Assembly (NCBI GenBank): GCA_016867655.1
Contig: VGJA01000009.1
Span: 1-14,388, forward strand
DNA from: Candidatus Altarchaeales archaeon
GTDB taxonomy: Archaea > Altiarchaeota > Altiarchaeia > IMC4 > SCGC-AAA252-I15
Direction of reading: 5' to 3'
Length of the DNA: 14,388 nt
The position numbers and the translations under genes were made by a program. Below are positions 1,425 to 3,323 of the stretch, one piece after another. The notes below the pieces were generated by a model that worked only from the letters and a program-made list of their open reading frames with translations, made no database searches and was not told the DNA's origin. Position 1 is the stretch's first letter. Each line of letters begins with the position of its first letter.

Positions 1425-1444
1425 CTGTAGAAACCTGTGGAACA

Positions 1445-1456
1445 TATATTTTTATA
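1445..1456 (+). promoter_or_regulatory. TATA-like box for the leucine-rich leader transcript
   Basis: An AT-only block, TATATTTTTATA, lies 21 nt after the pckG stop. Its centre is about 33 nt upstream of the ATG at 1484. Archaeal TATA boxes sit ~25-30 nt upstream of the transcription start, so transcription would begin only a few nucleotides before that ATG. Other promoters in this window have nearly the same box-to-ATG distance (30-31 nt). The T-rich strand could also help terminate pckG transcripts. Confidence 0.55.
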
Positions 1457-1483
1457 CCAGGAACTCACAGTATTTACTGCAAG

Positions 1484-1606
1484 ATGGATTCTTGTTTTTA
1501 CAGCACGGTGTCGTTTGACAGAAGACTTCTCTTAGGGAATCCTACCCCCTTGGGGTACCTACCGGGTCTAGAGTTGCTATTGCTGCTTTTGGGACTGCGA
1601 GAGTGA
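1484..1606 (+). CDS. Leucine-rich leader peptide upstream of leuA (putative attenuator ORF)
   Basis: A 40-codon ORF from ATG 1484 to TGA 1604-1606. Thirteen of 40 residues are Leu. The tail reads PGLELLLLLLGLRE, with six consecutive Leu codons at nt 1574-1591 (TTG CTA TTG CTG CTT TTG), a Leu codon just before (1568-1570), one just after (1595-1597), and an earlier Leu triplet (1526-1534). The six codons use five different spellings, so this is selection or chance at the amino-acid level, not a DNA microsatellite. It starts just after a TATA-like box, ends 91 nt before leuA, and its stop codon sits in the 5' arm of a long hairpin. Known parallel: bacterial leu/ilv/trp leader peptides, whose ribosomes stall at runs of the regulated amino acid's codons. 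The frame is open upstream to a GTG at 1421 overlapping the pckG end; ATG 1484 is preferred because of the promoter. It is not a membrane protein of any recognisable family. That it is translated and regulatory is inference. Confidence 0.6.
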   Translation: MDSCFYSTVSFDRRLLLGNPTPLGYLPGLELLLLLLGLRE

Positions 1607-1632
1607 ACTCTTAATTAAGATTCATGTCTCGC
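1570..1632 (+). promoter_or_regulatory. Competing RNA stems overlapping the leader stop codon (putative leucine attenuator)
   Basis: Stem B: nt 1597-1612 pairs with 1617-1632, loop AATT 1613-1616. Six pairs (GCGAGA with TCTCGC), a bulged G1626, five pairs (GTGAA with TTCAT, one G-U), a bulged C1608, then four pairs (TCTT with AAGA): 15 bp in all, extendable by U1596-G1633. The leader TGA (1604-1606) is inside the 5' arm. Stem A, mutually exclusive: AGAGTT 1570-1575 with AACTCT 1606-1611; its 5' arm begins at the last codons before and the first codon of the six-Leu run. A ribosome stalled on Leu codons would mask stem A and leave B free; a ribosome at the stop would block B. No long T-run follows stem B and I found no strong downstream partner for its 3' arm, so what B switches (termination, cleavage or leuA translation) is open. 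Confidence 0.55.
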
Positions 1633-1697
1633 GATTGGAGTAAAAAAGCTTAAATTAAATTTTCAATAATTAAAAAAAAAATTAAAGGTGCGTTAAA

Positions 1698-3221
1698 ATG
1701 ATCGGATTTGAATTCAACAAAAAGATAAAATACGAGGGAAAGCCAGGGAAGGTTAAGATTTTCGACACCACTCTGAGAGATGGAGAGCAGACTCCGGGAG
1801 TGGGCATGACCAGGCAGGACAAGGTCGAAATAGCTACGGCTCTTTCAAAACTTGGAGTGGACGTGATTGAAGCAGGATTCCCTGTTTCAAGCCAGGGCGA
1901 ATTCGAAGCTGTGAAGGCGGTTGCTGAAGCAGGGTTGAAAAGCAGGGTTTGCGCTCTCGCCAGGTGCGTTGAAAAAGACATGGACGCGGCGATGGACTGT
2001 AATGTGGATTTAGTGCACATTTTCATCGGCACGAGTCCGATACACAGGAAGTATAAACTGAAGATGAATGAGGAGGAAATTCTGAAGAAAGCGGAACAGT
2101 GCATCCAGTATGTCAAAGACAGGGGTTTTAAAGTGCACTTCAGCCCGGAGGACGCCTGCAGGACTGAACTTCCTTACCTGAAGAAAGTGTGCAAGCTTGC
2201 GAATGACATGAAAGTCAGTGAAATAAACATTCCGGACACTGTTGGAGTTATGACTCCGCAGGCGATGCACTGGCTGATTAAAGAATTAAAGAGTGTGATT
2301 AAAGTGCCGATTGCGGTGCACTGTCATAATGACTTCGGGCTTGCAGTCAGTAATACACTTGCAGCAGTAGCTGCCGGAGCTGTCATGCCCCATGTGACCG
2401 TGAACGGCCTTGGAGAAAGAGCGGGGAATGCAGACTTTGAGCAGGTTGTGCTGGGATGCAAGATTCTTTACGGGATAGACACTGGAATAAAGCTGAAGGA
2501 CATTTACAGCGCAAGCAAGATTGTGGAGAGAGTGTCTGGAATAAAGGTGATGCCGAACTTTCCGATTGTCGGGGACAATGCTTTCGCCCACCAGAGCGGA
2601 GTGCACGTTCATGGAGTCTTGGCTAAAGCTGCAACCTATGAGCCTATTGCTCCGGAAATGGTCGGCGCTAAGAGAAGGATGGTTCTTGGAAAACTGATTG
2701 GCGCTCACGGGATTAAAGACAAACTTGAACAGTTCAGCATTAAAGTCAATGAGGAACAGCTTCAGGAAATCACTTCAAAAGTGAAGGAGCTCGGCGCCAA
2801 AGGAAAGAAATTGGTTGAAGAAGACTTGATTGCAATAGCAGAAGATGTGCTGGGAGCCACTGCAAAGAAGGAGAGGATTGTGGAGCTCTTGGACATGAAA
2901 CTACACTCCGAATTGCACAAAAAACCGGTGGCGACAGTAAAAGTTACTGTGAACGGAAAACCGAAAACCGCAACCAAAGAAGGAGTCGGACCGGTGGATG
3001 CGACATTGAATGCAATCAAAAAAGCGGTTGGAGACGAGAGCATAAGGCTGGACGAATACCATCTGGACGCGATTACTGGCGGAAGCGACGCGCTCGCTGA
3101 AGTGACAATCAGAGTAAGCAGGAACGGAAACTCCACAATAGCCCGGGGAGTGAATGAAGACGTGGTGATGGCTTCAGTGATAGCGTTCATCAACGGGTTG
3201 AACAGGATACTCAAAAAATAG
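1698..3221 (+). CDS. leuA: 2-isopropylmalate synthase (archaeal type)
   Basis: Condenses acetyl-CoA with 2-ketoisovalerate, the first committed step to leucine. 507 residues, full length for archaeal LeuA. The TIM-barrel catalytic part carries the signature FDTTLRDGEQTPG (residues 22-34; R27 and D28 catalytic/metal), HCHND (H208 and H210 metal ligands) and GERAGN (239-244). A C-terminal LeuA dimerisation/regulatory domain (about residues 385-507) is where leucine feedback acts in this family. A good ribosome site, AAAGGTG at 1684-1690, lies 7 nt before the ATG; having a leader with an SD contrasts with the leaderless-looking neighbours and fits a transcript starting upstream. An AT-rich stretch at 1650-1662 could instead be its own TATA box, about 43 nt from the ATG. 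Paralogues in this family include citramalate and homocitrate synthases; the Leu-rich leader favours LeuA. Its last 56 bp are duplicated downstream. Confidence 0.88.
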   Translation: MIGFEFNKKIKYEGKPGKVKIFDTTLRDGEQTPGVGMTRQDKVEIATALSKLGVDVIEAGFPVSSQGEFEAVKAVAEAGLKSRVCALARCVEKDMDAAMDCNVDLVHIFIGTSPIHRKYKLKMNEEEILKKAEQCIQYVKDRGFKVHFSPEDACRTELPYLKKVCKLANDMKVSEINIPDTVGVMTPQAMHWLIKELKSVIKVPIAVHCHNDFGLAVSNTLAAVAAGAVMPHVTVNGLGERAGNADFEQVVLGCKILYGIDTGIKLKDIYSASKIVERVSGIKVMPNFPIVGDNAFAHQSGVHVHGVLAKAATYEPIAPEMVGAKRRMVLGKLIGAHGIKDKLEQFSIKVNEEQLQEITSKVKELGAKGKKLVEEDLIAIAEDVLGATAKKERIVELLDMKLHSELHKKPVATVKVTVNGKPKTATKEGVGPVDATLNAIKKAVGDESIRLDEYHLDAITGGSDALAEVTIRVSRNGNSTIARGVNEDVVMASVIAFINGLNRILKK

Positions 3222-3228
3222 TTTTCCC

Positions 3229-3268
3229 AGGTTTTTTGACCCGAGCTTGCGCGAGGGTCAAAAAAGCT
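3229..3268. terminator. Strong hairpin after leuA (probable bidirectional terminator)
   Basis: TTTTTTGACCC (3232-3242) pairs perfectly with GGGTCAAAAAA (3255-3265), 11 bp. Inside, GC pairs with GC around loop TTGC after a tandem G-A/A-G mismatch (GA on both strands). The T6/A6 flanks give a T-run on either strand, suiting termination of leuA and of the convergent gene ending at 3325. Role is inferred; archaeal termination depends mainly on T-rich non-template DNA rather than on the hairpin. Confidence 0.5.
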
Positions 3269-3323
3269 GATGGCCTCAGTAATAGCGTTCATCAACGGGT
3301 TGAACAGGATACTCAAAAAATAA
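3268..3323 (+). pseudogene. Duplicated 3' end of leuA
   Basis: These 56 bp repeat nt 3166-3221, the last 18 codons of leuA plus stop, at an offset of 102 bp. Only three bases differ, all at third codon positions: GCT/GCC, GTG/GTA, and stop TAG/TAA. The fragment has no start or expression signals. It ends 1 nt from the stop of the convergent gene (3325), resembling the 3-nt gap between ilvD and its convergent neighbour, so this may be the original leuA terminus and the 102 bp in front the later addition. A chimeric metagenome assembly of two strains is the main alternative. Confidence 0.75.

Follow-up and report, generated by a model that had tools for sequence, protein, structure and literature searches.

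Does the short ORF that precedes leuA in an archaeal genome report the leucine supply of the cell through the ribosome that reads it? This question is raised by a window of 14,388 nucleotides (the whole stretch of DNA analysed here) from an Altiarchaeota genome of 1.15 Mb in 215 contigs (G000), in which a leucine-rich ORF stands directly upstream of leuA. Ribosome-mediated transcription attenuators with trp, his, leu and ilv leader peptides are a textbook mechanism in bacteria. We compared the locus with its counterparts in a phylum sample of 29 genomes and with more distant archaeal loci. According to these comparisons, the leader ORF quite probably opens the leuA transcript and acts there as a leucine sensor read by the ribosome, and the same device would operate with Ile or Cys codons elsewhere.

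RESULTS

A leucine-rich ORF precedes leuA in related genomes

The original prediction had described a 40-codon ORF with 13 Leu, six of them consecutive, that follows a TATA-like box at leaderless spacing and ends in a hairpin before a leuA gene with a Shine-Dalgarno site. These elements were all borne out (Table 1): the box lies 27 nt from the ATG, the paired arms overlap the last codons and the stop, and leuA has a Shine-Dalgarno-like sequence. The prediction had also counted five Leu spellings in the run, which was wrong; there are four in the run and six over the entire ORF. The last codon of the run begins 8 nt ahead of the hairpin. Folding of the stop hairpin gave a z of -2.40, with 3 of 200 shuffles equally stable, and the full 214-nt leader was less striking (z -1.41, 19 of 200 shuffles as stable). 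Named close relatives of the window LeuA are 2-isopropylmalate synthases of Candidatus Altiarchaeota, and metagenome contigs encode LeuA proteins 64-90% identical to it. At the other end of the gene, the final 56 bases of leuA (3166-3221) recur about 100 bases downstream, at 3268-3323, with 3 mismatches, as a partial duplication.

Table 1. Features of the window and leader peptides of the compared loci
Feature	Position or locus	Strand	Sequence	Remarks
PEP carboxykinase gene	stop codon 1422-1424			upstream neighbour of leader ORF
TATA-like box	1449-1456	+	TTTTTATA	presumed leader promoter
Leader ORF	1484-1606	+	MDSCFYSTVSFDRRLLLGNPTPLGYLPGLELLLLLLGLRE	ATG...TGA, 40 codons, 13 Leu; stop TGA 1604-1606
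Six-Leu run	1574-1591	+	TTG CTA TTG CTG CTT TTG	within leader ORF
Stop hairpin, 5′ arm	1597-1606	+	GCGAGAGTGA	contains leader stop codon; arm limits set by us
Stop hairpin, 3′ arm	1622-1632	+	TCATGTCTCGC	bulged G kept in 4/4 family-f1 leaders
Shine-Dalgarno-like sequence of leuA	1687-1690	+	GGTG	
leuA, 2-isopropylmalate synthase	1698-3221	+		NCBIfam NF002085, 668 bits, cut-off 517
leuA leader peptides of relatives	G007, G004, G003		MSECWFPTVDFGSDFFSGSRLLLLLLRQRA, MEEGSCWYRFVDLEEIVSWNPILRLLLLLRPRA, MEKWVYQTASVYDMVKGNPLLRLLLLLLRLRE	
leuA leader of G008	G008		YAFYSYKDSLLLRLRLKLRALLK	end of ORF
Ile leader peptides	six family-f1 genomes		MAGKNGFWMVFLGIVLVASAIIIGT, MAERFSFWKVAFGMVLIAAAVIIGA, MAFKGFSTLATILICIIGA, MKCSTVFSGFVSLALVSIASLIIIGA, MAQFTRFLLLSTIIAIIIGA, MASNCLIIIIEG	
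Cys leader peptides	three cysK loci		MNGFHPRSGDCRCCCCRG, MDWQTSQKTESSNECRCLTCQCCL, MDSRPINAGICNRRCCLPECRL	
leuA leader of L174	L174:2302-2404		MICNAFIGLLLLLE	Shine-Dalgarno-led, predicted three-way junction
Leader peptides of six L174 relatives	L283-L288		MIFAQHAGLLLIG, MIFAQHIGLLLIE, MIFKLTTDELILLK, MICYASLGLILL, MIFSAHLRLLLIG, MMVYNLPSGNLLLE	

A search for LeuA orthologues in 61 genomes returned proteins 64-70% identical to that of the window from three members of the same family, f1 (G007, G004 and G003), and from one member of another family of the same order (G008). A Leu-clustered short ORF is present upstream of leuA at all five Altiarchaeota loci of this type, window included, with Leu runs of 6, 6, 5, 6 and 3. 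Thus, relatives keep the ORF and the run, as the prediction had anticipated. The weakest leader is that of G008, which has LLL at most and a poor stop hairpin (z 0.91). As controls we used 18 further Altiarchaeota LeuA loci, a set that leaves out partial LeuA-family matches in G005, G010 and G019; L008, with 67 nt upstream, was not counted, and the 17 others, each with at least 200 nt upstream, have no ATG ORF of 8-60 codons with a Leu run longer than 2.

Data from relative G002 give a background for the run itself. Of 886 short ATG ORFs located ahead of genes, 5 have a run of at least five of any one residue and 1 has a Leu run of five, and the five proteins of the window (8.4% Leu) have at most two Leu in a row. 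Both backgrounds agree with the earlier view that a chance origin of the six-Leu run is unlikely. Conservation across relatives is a stronger argument against chance than these run statistics.

A peptide variable outside the Leu run had been expected as well, and this stood in part. The cognate run is kept amid variation, but most of the Leu leaders also have in common an aromatic motif near the N-terminus and an R-x-R-[EA] end. The motif reads CFYSTVSF, CWFPTVDF, CWYRFVDL, WVYQTASV and YAFYSYKD (window 1484-1520; L004, L005, L026, L006), and codon sensing alone leaves it unexplained. These shared segments are what would be expected if the short ORFs were functional small proteins, hydrophobic or membrane peptides merely adjoining biosynthetic genes, to which we return with the Ile leaders.

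The spacer between leader and leuA in G003 (L026, about 1361-1446) contains two strong predicted hairpins. One of them has GGGAGG, which resembles the leuA Shine-Dalgarno sequence AAGGAGG and may compete with it for the same CCUCCC.

Ile and Cys codons replace Leu upstream of other genes

A citramalate-synthase-like paralogue, 45% identical to LeuA, is preceded by an ORF ending in Ile codons in all six family-f1 genomes that carry the gene; G005 and G006 gave no match to this paralogue at E 1e-100. Adjacent Ile codons number only two in G001 and G002 (2/6 leaders). The peptides range from 12 residues (MASNCLIIIIEG) to 26, and share the Ile codons and two residues before the stop, and little else. 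At 16 loci outside family f1, none of the ORFs listed has three consecutive Ile; MKISFSMLNFLLLLIYLI lies upstream of a LeuA-like paralogue in G025, also outside the family. NCBIfam models fail to separate LeuA from citramalate synthase here, and the source names of the paralogue differ, being 'D-citramalate synthase' (JGI) and '2-isopropylmalate synthase' (NCBI). Our label 'cimA' draws on paralogy, on these names and on the Ile leader, and is partly circular.

The cysK gene was found in 4 of the 29 genomes at E 1e-40, and a Cys leader precedes it in three; the cysK of G006 lacks one. With cognate leaders at 5/5 Leu, 6/6 Ile and 3/4 Cys loci, the reading of this layout as that of a leader peptide is supported.

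The same counts bear on the small-protein explanation introduced above. To the eye, the Ile leaders of G000 and G001 resemble a transmembrane helix, as a membrane peptide might. Against this, the Ile leaders have little in common over their 12-26 residues, the enriched residue is cognate for three different pathways, and the last codons pair with noncoding RNA. Functional small proteins thus seem to us very unlikely indeed as an account of these ORFs.

Other features were seen around cysK. All three leader promoters (L159, L160 and L161) have a palindrome, TTAACAATYGTTAA, between the TATA and the leader ATG, which is perhaps a repressor operator; TTAACAAT occurs in the G006 cysK promoter, where there is no leader ORF. 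Near one leader (L160:639-792, minus strand), an Rfam tRNA match spans 154 nt against a model of 71 positions, and because of this span the tRNA probably carries an intron.

We also looked for leaders on further genes. No candidate was found upstream of ilvB or hisG at 7 loci each, a count in which two ilvB loci have at most 115 nt upstream, the ilvB of G004 is left out, and ORFs can be missed where the gene frame stays open upstream (L245, L247, L249). A scan of about 1.7 Mb of G002, covered in 93 stretches, gave 185 distinct candidates combining a short ORF with a hairpin. The Ile and Cys leaders of this genome had the joint top promoter score among the 185, tied with one TTG and two ATG ORFs without a cognate run. 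When the candidates were ranked by residue run instead, the Cys leader came first, level with one PPPP ORF. A scan of 357,713 bases of the window genome (28 sequences, 67 candidates) gave, by our reading, no further leader, and it also misses the known Leu leader because of the bulge and long loop in its hairpin.

Leaders share their spacing and a hairpin at the stop codon

In each of the 14 Altiarchaeota leaders, a TATA-like hexamer, taken as the first match from a set of our choosing, starts 32-42 nt ahead of the ATG. Judged by the usual archaeal spacing between TATA and start, this would place the transcript start no more than about ten bases from the leader ATG. The final codon of the Leu run starts 15 nt ahead of the stop in 4/4 family-f1 leuA leaders, and in 6/6 Ile leaders the final Ile codon starts 9 nt ahead of it. 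Pairing sets in 6-8 nt before the stop in these 10 leaders, with arm limits set by us and with base -7 unpaired in the cimA-like leader of G007. Spellings of the cognate codons vary between leaders; hence, it is the amino acid that is kept and not the DNA.

The stop codon lies in the hairpin loop in 8/9 Ile and Cys leaders, and this loop has four bases in the Ile leaders. In the f1 Leu leaders the stop is within the stem, and the partner arm changes with it (UGA/UCA, UAG/UUA, UAG/CUA and UAA/UUA). Standard pairs fill 30/30 core cells of the Ile leaders and 40/40 cells of the four f1 Leu leaders, and when the 3′ arms are permuted, the pairing is as complete as observed in 3.3% of cases for Ile and 8.3% for Leu. 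With three to seven sequences per leader class, some of them identical in part, the pairing is support rather than proof. By fixed criteria, a stop-centred hairpin is present in 6/6 Ile, 2/3 Cys and 0/5 Leu leaders, and in 30 of the 886 background ORFs of G002, a group of 30 that includes the Ile leader of this genome. Four of the five Leu leaders, those of family f1, miss these criteria because their hairpin is longer and bulged.

One alternative is an element that acts as RNA or through a bound protein, in which the hairpin is the target of a regulator or belongs to an aptamer and the ORF is translated only incidentally. The bulged G kept in all four f1 leuA hairpins would suit such an element, and the Actinobacterial LEU element is argued, in the available part of its description, to be a protein-binding site despite its Leu-rich ORF (PMC1262725). 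However, the leaders keep their start, their frame, their stop and their cognate codons, and the hairpins of leuA, cimA-like genes and cysK are alike in their position at the stop codon and not in sequence. Moreover, an Rfam scan of the window and 20 loci returned no relevant family at gathering score, T-box included, its two tRNAs lying outside the leaders; two weak matches were unrelated, with E up to 5. We therefore regard an RNA-only or protein-bound element as very unlikely.

A ribosome on the cognate codons is predicted to change folding

In our folding model a ribosome masks a stretch that, by our own assumption, begins 18 nt upstream and ends 12 nt downstream of the start of the A-site codon. 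With the ribosome on the last cognate codon, the predicted number of hairpin pairs is 0.0 in all nine Ile and Cys leaders, and the four f1 Leu leaders are predicted to retain 3.0-5.1 of 10. When the ribosome is moved to the first codon of the run, 7.5-9.8 of 10 pairs are predicted to stay in the same Leu leaders. The first-codon mask also leaves the hairpin in three Ile leaders, those with a cluster that starts 18-21 nt ahead of the stop, and largely in the cysK leader of G003; 2.3 of 6 pairs stay in that of G002, and the remaining four Ile and Cys leaders lose the hairpin. According to the model, dwelling near the end of the run would hold the hairpin open. Strong starvation might then leave the Leu hairpin closed, since a ribosome halted on the first Leu codon is not predicted to open it.

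A T run of at least five is located 53-81 nt past the first base of the stop in 6/6 Ile and 2/3 Cys leaders. Among the leuA leaders it is found in 1/5 (G008, up to T10); a T run of 5 is absent before leuA in the four f1 leaders, and also for cysK of G002. Dinucleotide shuffles yield T runs with probability 0.07-0.92 at the eight Ile and Cys loci, and T-tract enrichment was rejected as proof of a terminator for lack of significance at single loci. A review names FttA, a termination factor, as the likely cause of polarity in archaea (PMC12548453). In the Ile and Cys leaders, premature transcription termination at the following U-tract, once the RNA lacks the protection of a ribosome, would be the likely output.

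Release of the ribosome-binding site was considered too. Predicted openness of the Shine-Dalgarno site and start stays within 0.15 of its free-state value among the folds listed, and sequestration of this site is unsupported by folding as a general switch. Mutually exclusive terminator and antiterminator structures before the gene were likewise not seen among the folds listed; since no such pair was found, we do not claim membership of the classical transcription attenuators.

The leader ORF could instead be a translation booster, with a ribosome that reads the leader to its end and then reinitiates on the next gene without sensing any amino acid. In its favour, the ORF is presumed to be first on its transcript, and by our reading a Shine-Dalgarno-like sequence is clear before 10/14 downstream genes. 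The gap from stop to gene, at 61-179 nt, speaks against this, for in E. coli and H. volcanii gene pairs the same review reports little or no coupling over more than 30 nt (PMC12548453). Boosting also leaves the runs of cognate codons unaccounted for, and we hold it to be extremely unlikely.

A second type of Leu leader outside Altiarchaeota

An alignment-based search of genome contigs gave 80 distant LeuA loci, and we took its 22 named archaeal loci, all but one with 200 nt or more upstream, as controls; the same search with a single LeuA protein gave no match. Among the 22, Leu runs of 5 occur in L167 (Methanomassiliicoccus sp.) and L174 (Methanomethylophilaceae), and a run of 4 in L182, which was rejected because its layout does not match.

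A search with the LeuA of L174 over 394 genomes returned six close relatives (L283-L288), 62-70% identical and of one family, whose identity to L174 suggests that they belong to the Methanomassiliicoccales. In 7/7 of these loci, L174 included, a Leu-rich ORF of 12-14 codons stands just upstream of leuA, although some runs are short (LILL). A predicted helix, ACCGUC:GACGGU, encloses the ORF and closes a few bases before the Shine-Dalgarno-like site of leuA. Seven common pairs are predicted, two of them with two-sided changes and the seventh broken in 2/7. The helix has a probability of 0.91-1.0 per sequence, and a longer stretch of L288 has a minimum-energy fold without it. In most predicted folds, the start of the leader and its Leu codons lie within hairpins inside the helix. 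Rfam has no family that matches this leader. In L167 the leuA start is similar and the ORF is different (MNDWRPDLLLLLRLVPVSSL).

In 41 further archaeal upstream regions of the LeuA family (24 families; best matches, some perhaps not LeuA), the best-ranked ORFs have no Leu run longer than 3. Other candidates were L030 (Leu run of 4), set aside on its peptide alone, L317, whose upstream ORF has LLL, and L023, L181 and L223, set aside by eye as hydrophobic ORFs.

DISCUSSION

From the ORFs, their cognate residues, the shared geometry and the conserved hairpin, we infer transcription start, translation, stalling, direction of response and output as follows. Transcription would start at or close to the ATG, and with such a start the first ribosome would need no Shine-Dalgarno site to load. 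Under a shortage of charged Leu-tRNA, the ribosome would dwell in the Leu run. As the last Leu codon begins 8 nt before the hairpin, a ribosome late in the run would cover part of the 5′ arm, and the outer stem would stay open. With ample Leu, the ribosome would reach the stop and depart, and the hairpin would close. A closed hairpin would lower and an open hairpin raise leuA expression, through translation, RNA stability or termination. The device with Ile codons would serve the citramalate-synthase-like gene, and that with Cys codons cysK.

In common with bacterial attenuators, the Altiarchaeota leaders have a short ORF with a cognate run upstream of a biosynthetic gene, and an RNA structure that overlaps the end of this ORF. 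They differ in being archaeal, in their presumed leaderless start, in the single hairpin that holds the stop, and in that no terminator/antiterminator pair was found for leuA.

The mechanism of mycobacterial polycysteine ORFs reportedly frees a sequestered ribosome-binding site. Here, in contrast to these bacterial ORFs, such release is unsupported by folding, and Leu and Ile are used as well. The likeness would lie in a Cys-rich ORF that opens the mRNA of a Cys gene, with the speed of the ribosome as sensor. This type of layout is present at cysK in 3/4 genomes, with a leaderless start suggested by TATA spacing. The mycobacterial Cys-rich leaderless short ORFs are those of Canestrari et al. 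2020, as cited in the accessible part of PMC9031893.

The Actinobacterial LEU element, as far as the available text of PMC1262725 describes it, is a pseudoknot whose base stem is made of Leu codons and the leuA Shine-Dalgarno site. Both it and the Altiarchaeota leader have a Leu-rich ORF immediately before leuA, together with RNA structure; the Altiarchaeota leader has a stop-codon hairpin instead of the pseudoknot. A base stem of this type, between the Leu codons and the 16 nt before leuA, is not predicted in G000, G007 and G004 (0.01-0.06 expected pairs), and 2.0 pairs are expected in G003.

No archaeal leader-peptide attenuator appeared among the literature matches listed, judged mainly by titles and openings of abstracts and with few subscription papers among them. 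In the portions available, 'leader peptide' in PMC13158618 belongs to a bacterial reference, PMC11481537 treats E. coli thrL, and Ribo-seq of Methanosarcina mazei mentions uORFs without the term attenuation (PMC11456600). The kind is known from bacteria; set against these matches, its archaeal occurrence, the set of cognate leaders on several genes and the stop-codon hairpin would be new.

The leaders of Altiarchaeota and Methanomassiliicoccales differ in structure, leader start and peptide, and for this reason look independent. Archaea may then have evolved ribosome-sensing leaders at least twice: once as the leaderless Leu/Ile/Cys stop-hairpin set of Altiarchaeota, probably with a U-tract/FttA-type readout for Ile and Cys, and once as the Shine-Dalgarno-led Leu sensor of Methanomassiliicoccales, in a three-way junction closing by the leuA ribosome-binding site. 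On this combined proposal our judgement is evenly balanced.

If confirmed, these leaders would mean that the movement of ribosomes is usable as an amino-acid sensor in archaea, and they would add regulators for poorly cultured groups. They would also offer ready constructs for testing the coupling of transcription and translation, as well as termination, in archaea. The order Methanomassiliicoccales includes cultured members, and its leader could be tested in culture.
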